Shown here: one piece after another, positions 26,283 to 36,363 of the stretch
Layout of the letters: the number at the start of each line of letters is the position of its first letter
Position numbering within the stretch: the first letter of the stretch is position 1
Source: Solibacillus sp. FSL R7-0682
GTDB lineage: Bacteria; Bacillota; Bacilli; Bacillales_A; Planococcaceae
DNA length: 64,000 nt
NCBI RefSeq assembly: GCF_038005985.1
Contig: NZ_JBBOUI010000001.1
Coordinates: forward strand, 2,066,001-2,130,000
Reading direction: 5' to 3'
Notes under the pieces: generated by a model
Told to the model about the DNA's origin: nothing
Databases searched by the model: none
What the model saw: the letters and a program-made list of their open reading frames with translations, nothing else
Program-made: the position numbers and the translations under genes

Positions 26283-28217
26283 TCAATTTACTTCATCATA
26301 CGAATTAGTAATTTCACTATGGTTTTCACTATAAAATTTCTCGCCAACTGAATTTTCTACAGCTGTTTGGACTAAGTTTATTTTGGAATGGTTAACGGCT
26401 TGAATATTAAAGTTAAATTTATCGTTATGGATGATGCAATTTGTCGCGTGGACGGTCGAATTGTTTTGGACGTATATGTCTGATTCATGTCCTTCTGTTA
26501 ATTGAGTTGAAGAGAGCTCAACTGATGACTCTAAATCAATCCACACTTGTGGATATTGATGATTTGAAATAAATGAATCTTGTATTAATGCTTCCGAATG
26601 ATTTTCGATAATGAAGCCATTTTTTTCACCATGTAACAGCTCACTATTTCTGAAAATGAGCGAACTATCATTCACAACAATTTGAGGCATTTTATGGGCG
26701 ATAATTTGGCATTCTGTAATGTGAATCGAGGCATCTTTCATCGCTTTTATCGCATTACTTGTACCTTGTATTATTTTTGTTTTATGAATGGTTGCTTTTG
26801 TGTGACTTCCAACTTCGATTTGAACACCTGTACCGTCTGTAAAATGGCAGTCATTAACTTCTAATTGGCAGTTTTCAATCATAAAAATTCCTTTACCACC
26901 AGTAAATGTACTAGCTGAGACCGTTACTTGTGCTTTTTCTTTCCCGGCGATATGAGGCATTTGGTTCTTTTGAAATTGACAGTTTTCTATGGTGGCTTCC
27001 GTCTGCTTTACCGTCAAAATCCCATTTCCTTTATTGGCAAATATTTCAGTGTCTAATAAGAAAATTTCTGCGCCAATCGCTGTAATAGCAGTGTTCGCGT
27101 GATTGGATATTTTACTTGCTACGATCGAACAAGAAGCCTCTTTATCAACAAAGATTCCTACCTGTTTTCCATTTTTGATAACGGAATCTTTCCCAGTGCA
27201 AATCGATTTTTCCGTAATGTAAAGCTGAGATAATACATTGTCTTCAAAGATAGCATTTATAAAATTGACAATGGACTTTTCTTTTACTTGAATACCAACA
27301 CCCCGACATTTACTAATGTTGCTATCAGTCATATTTAGTAGTGATTCTAGTGTGAGTTGGATATTGGCAATTTTATGGTGGGAGAATTTACTATTTATAA
27401 TTGTTCCTTCGGATTGTTCTCGCAGCATGAGCCCTGATTCGCTACCTTGCTCAATAGAACAGTTTGTTAGTTGTATAGTACTTTTTTGTATCCAAAGCTG
27501 AGGGAGTACATGATGCTGGACGATTGTTTCATTTAATAGGACAGTCGACTGGTCGTTTGCATAAATACCGTTGCCTTCTCCATGTTCAATTGTACTTCCA
27601 GAATCTTGGTAGGTGGACTCTTCTTGTACAATAATTTGGGTTCCACTATGGTGATGGATATTGACATTTTCAGTAGTAACCTTTGAATTTGATTTTAGCC
27701 ATATGCCATGGCGCGCTTTGGAAAACTCGCAATTTTTTAATTCTACCTTTGAATTTTCTATAAATAAATGCGATTTTTGATTGTTATCAAAAGTACAATC
27801 TAGAAACGTAGCCACACTTTTATTACACAATATTACTGCAATTTCGTTTGCTCCAAAAAAATGACAGTTTGATATCGTTGCTTTTCCGCCGTTAAACGAA
27901 AGAAGCACATTTGTATTAGACCCATCGAATGTACAATTATTTATAAATACAGTTCCTTCAACATAAAACTGTGTAGAAGGATGAATGTTAATATTTTCAA
28001 ATGTAACTTCGAAACCTTTCGGGATGATGATAGCGCCCTTTAAGTAAACAATATCTCCATATTTTGCAGTAATCGTAACATTTCGATGAATGGATATCGA
28101 TTCTTTATATTTTCCATTGGCAAGTAGGATGACATCATCTTTACTTGCTTTTTTTAGTGCGCGATCTACTGTTTTATATTTTGAAAAAACAGAAGCTGAC
28201 ACTTTTATGATCGCCAT
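26283..28217 (-). CDS. Right-handed parallel beta-helix repeat protein, cytosolic
   Basis: 644 residues from ATG 28217 (AAGGAGG 7 bases upstream; a longer start covers it). After a short N-terminal region (KYKTVDRALKKASKDDVILLANGKYKESI, the pectin-lyase-like entry motif) the rest is about 25 coils of 22-24 residues with patterns such as ISNCHFFG, LTNCSIEQG, TITECQIIAH. These are typical of NosD/CASH-type beta-helices. No signal peptide or anchor is visible, unusual for this fold, so a cytoplasmic scaffold is implied. Many coils end in His-Lys/His-His patches. It is divergent, 266 bp away, from the MoxR-vWA-DUF2785 operon. Confidence 0.8.
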   Translation of the reverse strand: MAIIKVSASVFSKYKTVDRALKKASKDDVILLANGKYKESISIHRNVTITAKYGDIVYLKGAIIIPKGFEVTFENINIHPSTQFYVEGTVFINNCTFDGSNTNVLLSFNGGKATISNCHFFGANEIAVILCNKSVATFLDCTFDNNQKSHLFIENSKVELKNCEFSKARHGIWLKSNSKVTTENVNIHHHSGTQIIVQEESTYQDSGSTIEHGEGNGIYANDQSTVLLNETIVQHHVLPQLWIQKSTIQLTNCSIEQGSESGLMLREQSEGTIINSKFSHHKIANIQLTLESLLNMTDSNISKCRGVGIQVKEKSIVNFINAIFEDNVLSQLYITEKSICTGKDSVIKNGKQVGIFVDKEASCSIVASKISNHANTAITAIGAEIFLLDTEIFANKGNGILTVKQTEATIENCQFQKNQMPHIAGKEKAQVTVSASTFTGGKGIFMIENCQLEVNDCHFTDGTGVQIEVGSHTKATIHKTKIIQGTSNAIKAMKDASIHITECQIIAHKMPQIVVNDSSLIFRNSELLHGEKNGFIIENHSEALIQDSFISNHQYPQVWIDLESSVELSSTQLTEGHESDIYVQNNSTVHATNCIIHNDKFNFNIQAVNHSKINLVQTAVENSVGEKFYSENHSEITNSYDEVN

Positions 28218-28483
28218 GAAAACCCTCCTTGATGACATGCTATACCTATTATTTTCACTTATTTACGCAATCTTAATCAAAAAAATTCAAAATTTTTACA
28301 AGAAATTAATTATTCCATTCTTACATATAGTTATTTATAGGAAATAATATGTTACTTAAAATGAAAAAATAATACTTTGATTGAAATGTAGACGTTTAAA
28401 AACTTTTAATGTAGTGAATCGTTATACAAAAAGTGTAAATTCGTAAAAATAAAGTGTCGTTGTAAAGAAGGAGAGTAAAAGCA

Positions 28484-29602
28484 ATGCCAAAACAATTACA
28501 ACTCATCCAGCAAAAATTAAATGAACGTTTTTTTGATAGGGAAGAAGAAATTGAAGCATTAATAACAGCTATTCTTTCCAAGCAGCACCTTCTGTTTATT
28601 GGTCCAGCAGGAACTGGGAAAAGTGAATTGTCCTCAATGCTAGGACACATTGTAGAAGAAAGCCATTATTTTCAACATTTACTTACCCCATTTAGTACAC
28701 CAGAGGAACTATTTGGCGTGCTGTCTTTAAAGGACTTAGAACTAGGGCTATATAAACGAAATATAAAAAATATGTTGCCAGAAGCTCATTTTGCGTTTAT
28801 TGATGAAATTTTTAAAGCGAACTCAGCTATTTTAAATTCGTTATTAACAATAATTAATGAGCGGGTTTATTACAATAATGGTATACCAATCCCATGTCCA
28901 TTAATAACGATAGTGGGCTCTTCTAATGAATATATTGAAGAAGGGGAAGGTCTAGAAGCTTTATTTGATCGATTTTTATTACGTTATGAAGTGAATTATA
29001 TTCGACAACAAGATGACTTTATCGCAATGTTAAAAAATCAAAGTTATGTAGAGATTCCTAAATTGTCATTAGTTGAGTTATATGAACATCAAGAGAAGGT
29101 GTCACGTGTTTTCATATCGGATGCACTTTACAAAACACTTGCAAAAATTCGTCAGGCTTTACACGATGCTGGGATTCGTCCGTCAGATCGCCGTTTTAAG
29201 CAAGCGCTATCGATATTAAAAGCAAAGGCATACTTAGCTGGACGAGTAGTAGTGCTCAATGTTGACCTAAACATCCTTAAAAATATTTTATGGGATACGA
29301 TTGAGCAAAAGAAAAAAACAGAGGAAATTATAAATGAAATTGCTTTTGATACAGTAGATACCTTTATTGATCGGACAACTTCTGAGTTTGATCTCATCCT
29401 ATTAAATGCGCAAAATTTACTCATACGAAATACACCCGTTGCACGCAGTCAATTAAGTGAGCTTCTCATGCAAGGCAAAACGTTATTTATTGAAGTACAA
29501 AATATGAATCGCCAATTACCGAATCGCCCAGAATTACAAAACTTAAAAATGGACATGCATAAACGTTTATTACAAATGACATCTAAGGTTATTGGATTTT
29601 AA
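28484..29602 (+). CDS. MoxR-type AAA+ ATPase (RavA-like)
   Basis: 372 residues. Walker A GPAGTGKS (40-47), Walker B AFIDEIF (D107-E108), NSLLTIINERVYYNNG (the MoxR/helix-2-insert region), sensor 1 VGSSNEY (N148) and arginine finger DRFLLRYEV (163-167) are all present. GIRPSDRRFKQA is the sensor-2/lid Arg. It has a C-terminal helical extension like RavA/YehL. MoxR ATPases work with vWA proteins as chaperones that remodel partner proteins; the vWA gene follows 91 bp later. AAGGAGAG is upstream of ATG. Confidence 0.88.
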   Translation: MPKQLQLIQQKLNERFFDREEEIEALITAILSKQHLLFIGPAGTGKSELSSMLGHIVEESHYFQHLLTPFSTPEELFGVLSLKDLELGLYKRNIKNMLPEAHFAFIDEIFKANSAILNSLLTIINERVYYNNGIPIPCPLITIVGSSNEYIEEGEGLEALFDRFLLRYEVNYIRQQDDFIAMLKNQSYVEIPKLSLVELYEHQEKVSRVFISDALYKTLAKIRQALHDAGIRPSDRRFKQALSILKAKAYLAGRVVVLNVDLNILKNILWDTIEQKKKTEEIINEIAFDTVDTFIDRTTSEFDLILLNAQNLLIRNTPVARSQLSELLMQGKTLFIEVQNMNRQLPNRPELQNLKMDMHKRLLQMTSKVIGF

Positions 29603-29693
29603 AGTAAAATGGCTACCGAAAAAATAAATATATTAGCCCAAACATCTTGTGCAACCTCGTGCAAGGTGTATTTTTTCTAAAAGGAGGTTAATG

Positions 29694-31028
29694 ATGGAGT
29701 CAAATATACGGTTACTCTATAGTCATTCCATATTGAACATTTCACCGCTTCTACAACAACGCTTTAATGAATTATTAAAAATGGCAAAGATGTTGAATAA
29801 TATTTGTATAGAAGGCGAAAAACTATTACCCGGTTTTACAAATATTATCGGTGACAGCTGGTATGCATTTTTCGGACGTCATCCAAAAATACGGGAACAA
29901 GATATGCACCCTATTAAAATTCATGACACATTTATTTATAAGCTATTACGAAATGAGGAATATATCCGTTGGCATGAACTCACGAAAGGAGACGAAATGT
30001 TTAGTGTATTAACAGCGATTGGAATGGCTGAACAGCTGAAAAAATTATTGGAGAATGAGAGAAGTCAAACAATTGTCGTTCCACTGCATAATCACAATCA
30101 ATTTTCGACACTTTTACAAAACCTAAACGATTCTACAATCTCTACGATGATTCAACGGAATAAAAAGAAAGTAAGTAATACGCAAAAGTCTATTATTGCG
30201 GTAGGTACAATGGATGGAAAAAAACGAGAAGAAATTCCGCTACTTGATCAATTCGAGCTGGCAGAAAAATTACGGAACGATAAGGAGCTTCGGAAAATTG
30301 CTAATCTGGTTGGTCGCTTTAAAAAAATCGTGTTGAAAAAACAAAAAATGAAGCAAAAACAAACGATGGAGCGAAATAAAATTACCGTTGGCCAAGAAAT
30401 ATCGCGGTTATTACCGGCTGAAATGGCGAATTATATGATTCCTAATCGCAAAGTTGACTTTTTAAGACGCTTTAGTGAGCAGCAAACGTTTATCTTTGAT
30501 ACGAACGGGAAAGAGAAAAAAGGCAGAGGTCCGATAATAATTTGTATCGATGAAAGTAGTTCGATGACGTCGATTAAAGAACAAAGTAAAGCATTTTGTA
30601 TCGCGCTCTTAATGATAGCAAGAAATCAAAAACGTGATTTTGCAATTATTCCATTCGCTACAAAGCTGGGAGAAGTTAAAATCTTCTTGAAAGGTCAAGC
30701 TACGACACAGGAGCTGATTGAGTTTAGTAATAGTTTTCTAGGTGGCGGGACAAATTACGAACATCCATTACGAGAATCATTGGACATTTTATTAAAAAGT
30801 GAATTTAAAAAAGCGGATGTATTATTTGTGACAGACGGCTCCAGCTACTTGTCATCTAGCTTTATCCAACAATTTCTTCAAGCAAAAAAGGAAAAGCAAT
30901 TTGAATGTACGGCAATTGTCCTGACAAATTTTTATAACGCAGTTGATTTAACTGTTGTGAAGAAGTTTTCAGATCGTGTCATTGAGGTTGGAGAATTATT
31001 TGAAGCAGATGAAGCATTTGCTTTGTAA
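29694..31028 (+). CDS. vWA-domain protein (ViaA-like partner of MoxR)
   Basis: 444 residues from ATG 29694 (AAGGAGG 6 bases upstream). The N-terminal 270 residues are helical and basic. The C-terminal vWA domain has a complete MIDAS site: IICIDESSSM (DxSxS, about residue 286), GGGTNY (Thr, about 350) and FVTDGSS (Asp, about 380). This layout, an uncharacterised helical half plus C-terminal vWA, is that of ViaA/YehP-type partners of MoxR ATPases. Middle gene of the operon. Confidence 0.87.
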   Translation: MESNIRLLYSHSILNISPLLQQRFNELLKMAKMLNNICIEGEKLLPGFTNIIGDSWYAFFGRHPKIREQDMHPIKIHDTFIYKLLRNEEYIRWHELTKGDEMFSVLTAIGMAEQLKKLLENERSQTIVVPLHNHNQFSTLLQNLNDSTISTMIQRNKKKVSNTQKSIIAVGTMDGKKREEIPLLDQFELAEKLRNDKELRKIANLVGRFKKIVLKKQKMKQKQTMERNKITVGQEISRLLPAEMANYMIPNRKVDFLRRFSEQQTFIFDTNGKEKKGRGPIIICIDESSSMTSIKEQSKAFCIALLMIARNQKRDFAIIPFATKLGEVKIFLKGQATTQELIEFSNSFLGGGTNYEHPLRESLDILLKSEFKKADVLFVTDGSSYLSSSFIQQFLQAKKEKQFECTAIVLTNFYNAVDLTVVKKFSDRVIEVGELFEADEAFAL

Positions 31029-31113
31029 ATCCTATTTAAGAGTCGTTCTTCCTAGTCAAACTGCTTATTGTCTCTTACAATGACAATATGGAACTGATTT
31101 AGGAGGAATTTTA

Positions 31114-31950
31114 TTGTACCAGCAAGATTATGATCAATTATTATCATTAACACCAATGGACCGTGCACAATATGTATTAAACAATGAAGAAATATTTGAG
31201 CAACTATTAGCAGAGGTTGGAAATGACAATGCACAACTAAGAGATCAACAAAATTACCGTTTATTTCTTCAATTGCTATCAGAGAATGTAATACCAGAAA
31301 AAATCATTCATCACTATGTACAACGTTTAACATCATCTGAAGGCCTGCTCTATGAAATTGGAGCAGTTGGAGATACAAGTGTTTTTCAACGTTCATTCTC
31401 AGCGCTTTTTTTAACAGCTATTGTACATGCTGATCGCCAACTACAATTTTTAAATGAAATTGAAATTGAACAAATAACAAAAAGTGCACTTACTCTTTTT
31501 ACAAAGGAAAAGGATTTACGCAGTTATGTAAATGAACTATCAGGATGGGCACATAGTATTGCGCACACTACAGATCTTTTATGTGCAATTATTCAACATA
31601 CTCATTATCCAATTCAATATACAGCACATATTTTACAGGGGATCCGTCAAAACTTATGGAAGGGATATGTATTCCAAGATGATGAGGAAGAGCGCTTCTG
31701 TAATATTGTTGAAGCTTTGTTAGGAAAGGAGATTGACGAGGACTTACTCATTGAATGGATCGAGCAGTTATATGATTATTTGGAAATGGTAGCGTTCGAG
31801 CGCGGCTATGATGCAAATTGGTTTAAAGCAAGAACGAATTTATTAGCGACTTCCAAAACACTCTACTTTTATTTGAAATTTTCAAATCGAAGTGAAAAAT
31901 TACGGGGAATTGTCTCCATCTTTATCCAACGTTGGCTCAAATTGAACTAA
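31114..31950 (+). CDS. DUF2785 family protein
   Basis: 278 residues from TTG 31114 (AGGAGG 7 bases upstream). All-helical; RSFSALFLTAIVHADRQ and LSGWAHSIAHTTDLLCAI match DUF2785, a helical-repeat family whose WAHxxAHxxDLL motif is its hallmark. Function unknown. It follows the vWA gene by 85 bp without a terminator, so it is probably part of the same unit. Having this family beside MoxR-vWA is the unusual point. Confidence 0.72.
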   Translation: MYQQDYDQLLSLTPMDRAQYVLNNEEIFEQLLAEVGNDNAQLRDQQNYRLFLQLLSENVIPEKIIHHYVQRLTSSEGLLYEIGAVGDTSVFQRSFSALFLTAIVHADRQLQFLNEIEIEQITKSALTLFTKEKDLRSYVNELSGWAHSIAHTTDLLCAIIQHTHYPIQYTAHILQGIRQNLWKGYVFQDDEEERFCNIVEALLGKEIDEDLLIEWIEQLYDYLEMVAFERGYDANWFKARTNLLATSKTLYFYLKFSNRSEKLRGIVSIFIQRWLKLN

Positions 31951-35033: not shown

Positions 35034-35160
35034 TTTTAAAATGGTTCTACAATATTTGTTGGGGTGTTCATACAAATTCACATAAAAAAAGCACAAAATC
35101 ACACTTTTTTATATACTTGAATTGACTAGAAACAAGATATAGAAAGGTGATTTGTGCTCT

Positions 35161-36363
35161 ATGAATTTTACCATGAACATCCCAGGATTAAAAGAAGTAA
35201 TCATCAATGAAATGACGGAACAGAAGAATCGAATTGTTCTTCATGTTTCGATGCCTCAAAAAGAACATACTTGCCCAGATTGTGGTCAATTAACAGATAA
35301 AGTTCACGATTATCGTATTCAAAAAATCAAACATTTAAAGTGGTTTGAACGTTTAACCGTTCTCTTTTATAAAAGACGCCGTTACCGCTGTTCTTGTGGC
35401 AAAAGATTTAGTGAAGATTCCCCTTTTGTCGAGCGTTACCAACGCTTTTCAAAGGAATGGAATCAGGTTGTTCGTATTCGTTCGGTTAAAGCGAAAACTT
35501 TTAAAGAAGCAGCAGATGTACTTGGTACATCTTCATCAACAGTGATTCGACGCTTTAAACAGCTTGTTCATCAATTACCAGAAAAGGTACGTTTACCAAA
35601 AGCGATTGCGATCGATGAATTTAAAGCAGATACAGATGCTGGAACTTATCAACTGATAATCGCAAACGCAGATACACATGAACCTATTGATATTTTGCCA
35701 AATCGTAGAAAAGAAACAATTAAACACTATCTTCAAGAAAATGGGGCAGATGTCGAAATCGTTGTGATGGATATGAATCCTAGCTTTAAAGCAGCAGTAA
35801 AGAAGGCTTTAAATCGTCCTGTTATTGTGGCTGACCGTTTTCATTACTGTCGCTATATTCATTGGGCTGTGGATGAAGTACGTCGGAAAGTCCAAAATGA
35901 ATGGAATTCTTATGACCGTAAAAAGGCGAAGCGAATGCGCTATGTCTTGCATAAGGATGAACACAAATTAACCGAAAAAGAACGTTGGTACTTAAATCGT
36001 TATATCAATATGTCCACTGAATTGAAGGAAGCACATGAATTAAAAGAACTTTATAAGAAGTGGCAACGAGAATCGAAAAAAGAAAGTGTATCAGAAGTGA
36101 AAGTGAAATTATATGACTTCTACCGAAAGGTTGAAGAAACAAAAAATCCAGCCTTTTTAAAAGCAATAAAAACGTTTAAGAACTGGCAAAAAGAAATTCT
36201 AAATAGCTATGCATTTGGTTATTCTAATGGATTTTTAGAAGGGATTAAAAATACCTCCAAAGTATTAAAAAGGAATGCCTATGGATTCCGTAAATTTGAA
36301 CACTATAAAGCAAAGATATTACTAAATCATGTATATAAAAATGTAGGGATTCACCTTGGTTAA
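35161..36363 (+). CDS. ISL3-family transposase
   Basis: 400 residues from ATG 35161 (a TTG at 35152 is possible). N-terminal zinc-finger CPDCG and CSCGKRF (zf-ISL3), an HTH (KEAADVLGTSSSTVIRRFK), then the DDE domain: AIDEFKADTDAG (first Asp), IVVMDMNPSFKAAV (second Asp) and YSNGFLEGIKNTSK (Glu). All catalytic positions are present and the frame is intact, so the element may be active. Full family length. Confidence 0.95.
   Translation: MNFTMNIPGLKEVIINEMTEQKNRIVLHVSMPQKEHTCPDCGQLTDKVHDYRIQKIKHLKWFERLTVLFYKRRRYRCSCGKRFSEDSPFVERYQRFSKEWNQVVRIRSVKAKTFKEAADVLGTSSSTVIRRFKQLVHQLPEKVRLPKAIAIDEFKADTDAGTYQLIIANADTHEPIDILPNRRKETIKHYLQENGADVEIVVMDMNPSFKAAVKKALNRPVIVADRFHYCRYIHWAVDEVRRKVQNEWNSYDRKKAKRMRYVLHKDEHKLTEKERWYLNRYINMSTELKEAHELKELYKKWQRESKKESVSEVKVKLYDFYRKVEETKNPAFLKAIKTFKNWQKEILNSYAFGYSNGFLEGIKNTSKVLKRNAYGFRKFEHYKAKILLNHVYKNVGIHLG

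Follow-up and report, generated by a model that had tools for sequence, protein, structure and literature searches.

We know of no client for most pairs of a MoxR AAA+ ATPase and a von Willebrand factor A (vWA) protein. The best matching pair to the one described here is RavA–ViaA of Escherichia coli, in which a RavA-type AAA+ core with an AAA_lid_8 domain is followed, in the same operon, by a ViaA-type vWA protein with a metal ion-dependent adhesion site (MIDAS). Expression of ravA-viaA is mainly sigmaS-dependent in aerobic growth (PMC3893208), and the LARA domain is the LdcI- and lipid-binding part of RavA (PMC9489729). MoxR and vWA genes also adjoin in the E. coli YehL-YehM-YehP-YehQ cluster, and they form the core of predicted ternary conflict systems, one class of which has a beta-propeller fused to the vWA protein (eLife 2020, PMC7159879). 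The present analysis concerns a locus in a 64,000-nucleotide stretch of the 4.06 Mb genome of Solibacillus sp. FSL R7-0682 (contig NZ_JBBOUI010000001.1, positions 2,066,001 to 2,130,000), referred to throughout as the window.

The locus comprises four genes, all with open frames. One encodes a beta-helix protein and diverges from genes for a complete MoxR ATPase, a vWA protein with an intact MIDAS and a DUF2785 protein, as an earlier account made from the DNA letters alone (the sequence-only reading) had described. That account also proposed a four-part system. Comparison across related genomes upholds a module of beta-helix, MoxR and vWA but not the larger unit: 26 of 51 beta-helix loci lack the pair, and DUF2785 relatives occur in 163 of 250 genomes of the window's family, mostly without a full-length beta-helix. 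An obligate four-part system is thus rejected on gene distribution. Literature searches brought up one jumbo-phage paper for MoxR and vWA together with a beta-helix, one paper for DUF2785 and none that joins a beta-helix to EccA in Streptomyces; it is on those searches that we call the arrangement undescribed. Our preferred reading, to which we give a probability of about 0.45, is that the RavA/ViaA-like pair acts in trans on the cytosolic beta-helix protein, which would bind a target or serve as a scaffold, probably under general-stress control.

Relationship of the pair to RavA–ViaA

The window MoxR matches the Pfam families AAA_5 and AAA_lid_8. Its Walker A residues (G40, P41, G43, K46 and S47), Walker B residues (D107 and E108) and S234-R237 are invariant across 19 aligned rows including the window, as are the MIDAS residues of the vWA protein (D301, S303, S305, T368 and D396) across 21. 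The MoxR core is 35% identical to E. coli RavA over 279 amino acids (hhalign E 1.5e-50), and the vWA profile aligns to ViaA residues 201–454 (hhalign E 2e-22). Gene order is also shared, MoxR preceding vWA, and the stationary-phase sigma factor of the E. coli operon has a possible counterpart in a sigB-like element at the window locus. Unlike E. coli RavA, in which LARA (PF20265) and the RavA C-terminal domain (PF12592) were both found, the window MoxR shows neither, and the window locus differs further in its divergent beta-helix gene and its DUF2785 gene. Among the relatives that the sequence-only reading had named, RavA–ViaA is therefore borne out, whereas YehL–YehP is not: the window MoxR matches YehL at only E 0.23, and the match of the vWA protein to YehP (E 1e-5) is confined to the vWA fold. 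A RavA-type pair that lacks LARA and keeps one dedicated neighbour offers a concrete, testable partner.

Distribution and linkage

The locus was surveyed in 250 genomes of the window's family, with a beta-helix counted as full-length above 600 bits and a vWA protein as present at a profile E-value of at most 1e-30. Among the matches listed, full-length beta-helices occur in 52 genomes from six genera; an order-level search of 261 genomes gave the same 52, all from the window's family among the matches listed. The vWA profile matches 80 of the 250 genomes. Fifty-one of the 52 beta-helix loci were read; G223, at a contig edge, was left out. Among the vWA places, a fragmentary and unlinked one in G274 was left out.

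A divergent MoxR–vWA pair adjoins the beta-helix gene at 25 of the 51 loci, in five of the six genera. These include 16 of 16 loci in the window's own genus (g1, genera being given here by number), three each in g19 and g11, two in g16 and one in g15. Wherever a full-length beta-helix and a vWA protein share a genome, their genes are adjacent (25 of 25 sampled family genomes). Neither beta-helix nor DUF2785 genes were found near any of 78 other MoxR–vWA loci (20, plus 58 of 60 fetched stretches), each covered for about 6 kb on either side and less at contig ends. The recurrent divergent order is not chance. In one g1 genome, the vWA gene falls into two frames (G002:C1:2266848-2268342), with the MoxR and beta-helix genes open; a sequencing error is possible.

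The window locus is flanked by yfkAB on the beta-helix side and, after DUF2785, by an aconitase-like gene that we take to be acnA. These flanks are largely constant, acnA being present at 48 and yfkAB at 46 of the 51 loci. The sequence-only reading had suggested a neighbourhood comparison, looking for co-occurrence of all four genes beside variable flanks; what the comparison returned was the divergent triad at 25 of 51 loci, beside flanks that vary little. Most g11 loci read (L082, L150-L170) carry a gene before acnA for a small protein, of 184–198 amino acids in most, with one apparent membrane segment. The same spot holds other genes in g18 and g19.

DUF2785 tracks the beta-helix better than it tracks the MoxR–vWA pair. 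It is present at 45 of the 51 beta-helix loci, 23 with the pair and 22 without. At one locus (G147), two unidentified open reading frames lie between DUF2785 and the beta-helix gene, and in the two g16 genomes DUF2785 is found some 6 kb past the vWA gene. In the remaining four beta-helix genomes, DUF2785 was not among the matches. In the window, DUF2785 is probably in one transcript with the pair. The predicted structure is all-alpha with a predicted local distance difference test (pLDDT) score of 71 and ARM/HEAT-like matches no better than E 0.09, and no function was inferred from this fold.

Descent of the linked pairs

In a tree of 51 beta-helix proteins, in which the long g16 and g18 branches are possibly misplaced, the presence of the pair requires three changes. 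The three g11 proteins with a pair are nested among pair-less g11 proteins, beside a weakly supported sister group (82/50). A first tree of 45 MoxR proteins required two label changes (a single change in 55% of bootstrap trees) and grouped the linked MoxR proteins with one unlinked second pair of genome G204 without resolving the relationship. Adding 58 MoxR proteins gave a 103-row tree, built by a quick method, in which a single branch separates the 25 linked MoxR proteins from every other row (Shimodaira–Hasegawa-like approximate likelihood ratio test support 94). The added proteins thus strengthen a single origin of the linked pairs. Genus order in the MoxR tree resembles that in the beta-helix tree. 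The simplest reading would be one association followed by vertical descent, with the pair lost repeatedly as a unit while the beta-helix and DUF2785 stayed.

The beta-helix protein

The likely start of the beta-helix gene is the ATG at 28217, since AAGGAGGG precedes it, which gives a protein of 644 amino acids. The protein matches PF13229 (E 3e-59), and AlphaFold2, run with an 8-row alignment, predicts with confidence a parallel beta-helix of regular build (mean pLDDT 95.2). The N-terminus, judged by eye, is not signal-like, in agreement with the initial description of a 644-residue beta-helix without a signal peptide. Profile periodicity indicates coils of 23 residues arranged in a 46-residue, two-coil super-repeat. 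The best conserved turn position is, on alternate coils, occupied by Gln, His or Asn in 8 of 10 cases between residues 194 and 604, in a register set by eye from DSSP with one anchor possibly out of place; the coils in between mostly have Gly there. This ladder is 98–100% conserved over the 51 beta-helix rows, with and without the pair, and therefore serves the beta-helix's own task.

Foldseek places two chains of the phage Andhra upper-tail structure first, followed by many alginate lyases and epimerases, with identities of 7–14% among the 50 matches listed. A role as an enzyme was considered and rejected at these identities, the ladder not being lyase-like by our reading.

Beta-helix proteins fused to AAA+ domains

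When 72,556 plasmid records were searched in translation with the window beta-helix, 13 of them matched at E 1e-5, all from Streptomyces, and 26 at E 0.01, of which 25 are from Streptomyces. All eight Streptomyces proteins examined carry one or two AAA+ domains C-terminal to the beta-helix; the three that were scanned match models for SpoVK, CbbX and EccA, in one case below cut-offs. Type VII secretion genes adjoin five of the eight in the regions fetched (L220, L221, L222, L226 and L229), L225 and L227 have other annotated neighbours, and the L228 region is without annotation. Within the window's family, the long beta-helix proteins of g3, g9 and g10 also end in AAA+ domains (5/5 tested, by Pfam for two), as against none of three beta-helix proteins of 513–754 amino acids. 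Among the matches listed, open-frame forms of at least 1,000 amino acids (26 genomes, in g3, g9 and g10) and full-length stand-alone forms (52 genomes, in six other genera) share no genome. The window beta-helix has no C-terminal classical AAA+ domain: Pfam gives beta-helix families only, and there is no Walker A motif. Five of the fused proteins in the family (L088, L178, L180, L182 and L090) are 1,027–1,193 amino acids long, and no type VII genes were noticed near them by eye, the neighbours not having been scanned.

In the reverse direction, one Streptomyces beta-helix was searched against 16 genomes of the window's genus: 15 of them gave matches, 22 in number, and every match lies at this locus (best E 7e-10). 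A 513-residue g14 beta-helix matches 12 plasmid records, all Streptomyces, and one Streptomyces beta-helix matches 38 (35 Streptomyces, 2 Deinococcus and 1 Embleya). The plasmid similarity is therefore at the family level and not special to the pair-linked beta-helix.

In both settings, a homologous beta-helix is tied to an AAA+ motor. The EccA/SpoVK/CbbX-type proteins carry a classical-clade AAA+ domain in cis, often at type VII loci in Streptomyces, whereas at the window locus the motor is in trans, belongs to the MoxR clade and has a vWA cofactor. A preprint on SpoVK proposes that members of that AAA+ clade may recruit substrate through their variable N-terminal parts, among them the beta-helix of EccA (PMC10659427). 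The fusions suggest that rods such as the beta-helix assist AAA+ motors in selecting or holding their substrates. A broader proposal, on balance doubtful, is that recruiting substrate to AAA+ machines is a general role of cytosolic beta-helices, played in cis for SpoVK/CbbX/EccA-type ATPases and in trans for a RavA/ViaA-like MoxR–vWA pair, with the two arrangements replacing each other across genera of one family. If beta-helices do recruit for two such distant AAA+ clades, the two would draw on one adaptor principle, and what the beta-helix of type VII secretion ATPases in actinobacteria does could be tested in a simpler setting. The most useful new lead to emerge from this analysis is the set of fused homologues.

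The divergent region and its putative promoter elements

Little is conserved between the beta-helix and MoxR genes apart from two elements, one facing MoxR (GTTTAA-N14-GTGWA) and one facing the beta-helix gene (G[AG]TTAA-N14-GTGAA). Scans covered 47 of the 51 loci, those that have neither the pair nor DUF2785 (four) being set aside; at L160 a guessed start shortened the region to 49 bases. When the spacer was fixed, matches were seen at 16 of 25 pair loci in each direction, against none at the 22 pair-less loci that carry DUF2785 and 0.5% among letter shuffles. Allowing spacers of 13–17 raises the matches towards the beta-helix gene to 22 of 25 pair loci versus 3 of 22 of these pair-less loci, and gives 16 of 25 versus 1 of 22 towards MoxR (shuffles 2%). 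The window genome encodes three proteins above the SigB/F/G cut-off. One locus is presumably a sigB operon, its rsb names being assigned provisionally by gene order; GTTTAA-N14-GGGGAT lies before its rsbV, with the same −35 sequence and spacer as the elements at the beta-helix locus.

A candidate partnership and its alternatives

In the preferred reading, the MoxR ring and its vWA cofactor would work in trans on the beta-helix protein, in direct contact with it. Target binding or a scaffold role would fall to the beta-helix, which the ATPase, guided by the vWA protein, would load, release or remodel. Where the beta-helix is fused to SpoVK/CbbX/EccA-type ATPases, the AAA+ domain presumably does likewise in cis. 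General stress control probably turns on the beta-helix and the pair together, and DUF2785 may be a helical accessory of the beta-helix, not of the pair. Two hints of partnership are the sigB-like elements facing both genes and the beta-helix homologues fused to AAA+ domains. The sequence-only reading had cast the beta-helix as client, scaffold or recognition surface of the pair; the AAA+ fusions fit this suggestion, as does the finding that beta-helix and pair make up a divergent module that is conserved and arose once. The refuting condition set by that reading, homologues of the beta-helix and DUF2785 genes away from MoxR–vWA pairs, is what 26 of 51 beta-helix loci show, and it counts against the four-part system.

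Several further observations weigh against a partnership. The pair-less loci fall in g11 (21) and g18 (5), so the beta-helix works without the pair there, and much of the linkage between beta-helix and pair is shared ancestry of one locus. No residue fixed at 95% in pair-bearing beta-helices falls below 40% in pair-less ones, and the reverse signature exists at three sites (186, 341 and 495), fixed without the pair and below 40% with it; a residue signature of the pair is rejected on this basis. At a threshold of 95% conservation, rows with the pair have 81 conserved positions and rows without it 56. Beta-helices that have the pair are on the whole the more acidic ones, yet not inside g11, and vWA charge is positive in most rows shown; electrostatic pairing was rejected as well, since charge varies by lineage and not by pair status in g11. 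The promoter pattern was composed post hoc from the alignment and its spacer widened after misses, its counts come from related loci that are not independent, the strict pattern shows no enrichment across the genome (17 matches versus 20 for a reversed control), and its −10 has GTG where the sigB operon has GGG. Finally, the window beta-helix is only about 16–20% identical to the Streptomyces proteins, the fused AAA+ domains are of a different clade from MoxR, and similarity between repeat proteins is weak evidence of common function.

A rather unlikely alternative is that the beta-helix is the client, with MoxR–vWA aiding its folding, assembly or ligand uptake and dispensable where it matures unaided. 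The asymmetric loss favours it, as all 25 members of the linked MoxR group have a beta-helix beside them while the beta-helix is kept at 26 pair-less loci, and the split vWA frame in G002 would too if it is not a sequencing error. The pair-less beta-helices, however, show little compensating change (three sites), and fusion in cis to another AAA+ clade fits an adaptor at least equally well. Taken together, the asymmetric loss leans towards a client or accessory control, and the fusions lean towards an adaptor.

It is slightly less probable still, and thus also unlikely, that the genes are neighbours by descent only, the pair having been placed once in a yfkAB–beta-helix–DUF2785–acnA locus and repeatedly lost with no functional tie. 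Both acnA and yfkAB are present at 21 of 25 pair loci and at 24 of 26 pair-less loci, which this explanation would predict, as it would the many pair-less loci and the missing residue signature. It fares worse with the two g16 genomes, where the beta-helix/MoxR/vWA triad is kept beside different genes, with the similar promoter elements on both sides, and with the AAA+ fusions elsewhere.

Comparison with conflict systems and other MoxR–vWA pairs

The window locus shares a MoxR and vWA core with the ternary conflict systems, and its MoxR matches PF20030 (bpMoxR) at 167 bits; E. coli RavA outscores it at 191 bits, so the label is not diagnostic. That the locus is such a predicted conflict system, a kind mentioned in the sequence-only reading, with the beta-helix as variable effector is very improbable and was rejected. 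Scans of the four proteins found no beta-propeller, VMAP, iSTAND, FtsH or effector domain, and so none of the third components or effectors described for the ternary systems, which puts the locus at odds with the definition of the beta-propeller class. No PADLOC match of the four went below E 0.02 (the pVip matches being the YfkAB radical SAM neighbour), and the beta-helix had no match at E 1e-5 in 50,697 phage records. The flanks are largely constant, unlike those of a mobile conflict system, and inheritance is vertical.

Other RavA/ViaA-like pairs lie near a DUF6744 gene at L091, L092, L093, L102 and L224 (PF20529 confirmed in L093, by annotation in L224 and by clustering in the rest). L224 is a Brevibacillus laterosporus plasmid, the one plasmid occurrence of this linkage, and the DUF6744-linked pair is possibly a mobile kind. 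On the Lysinibacillus capsici plasmid pFN9A (L223, 83648-96934), a Lon_C protease-domain protein is encoded on one side of a MoxR–vWA pair and an AAA_21/AbiEii-like ATPase on the other, with conjugation genes close by.

Features of the locus

Table 1. Coordinates of the genes and sigB-like elements, as positions in the window.
Feature	Position	Strand	Basis or comment
Beta-helix open reading frame	26283-28238	minus	Open reading frame; likely coding part 26283..28217
Beta-helix protein, cytosolic, right-handed, 644 aa	26283..28217	minus	Open reading frame, ribosome-binding site, PF13229, AlphaFold2, repeat period
Divergent intergenic region, sigB-like element facing each way	28220..28483	no strand	Alignment and pattern scans
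Element towards beta-helix			GATTAA-N14-GTGAA
Element towards MoxR	28394-28418		GTTTAA-N14-GTGAA
RavA-type MoxR AAA+ ATPase without LARA	28484..29602	plus	Pfam, motif alignment, RavA comparison
ViaA-like vWA protein, complete MIDAS	29649..31028	plus	Pfam, alignment, hhalign
DUF2785 protein, all-alpha	31114..31950	plus	PF10978, E 2e-44

Beyond the locus, an ISL3-family transposase gene lies at 35152-36363 of the window, between the acnA-like gene and a 5'-nucleotidase-like open reading frame with S-layer-homology repeats.

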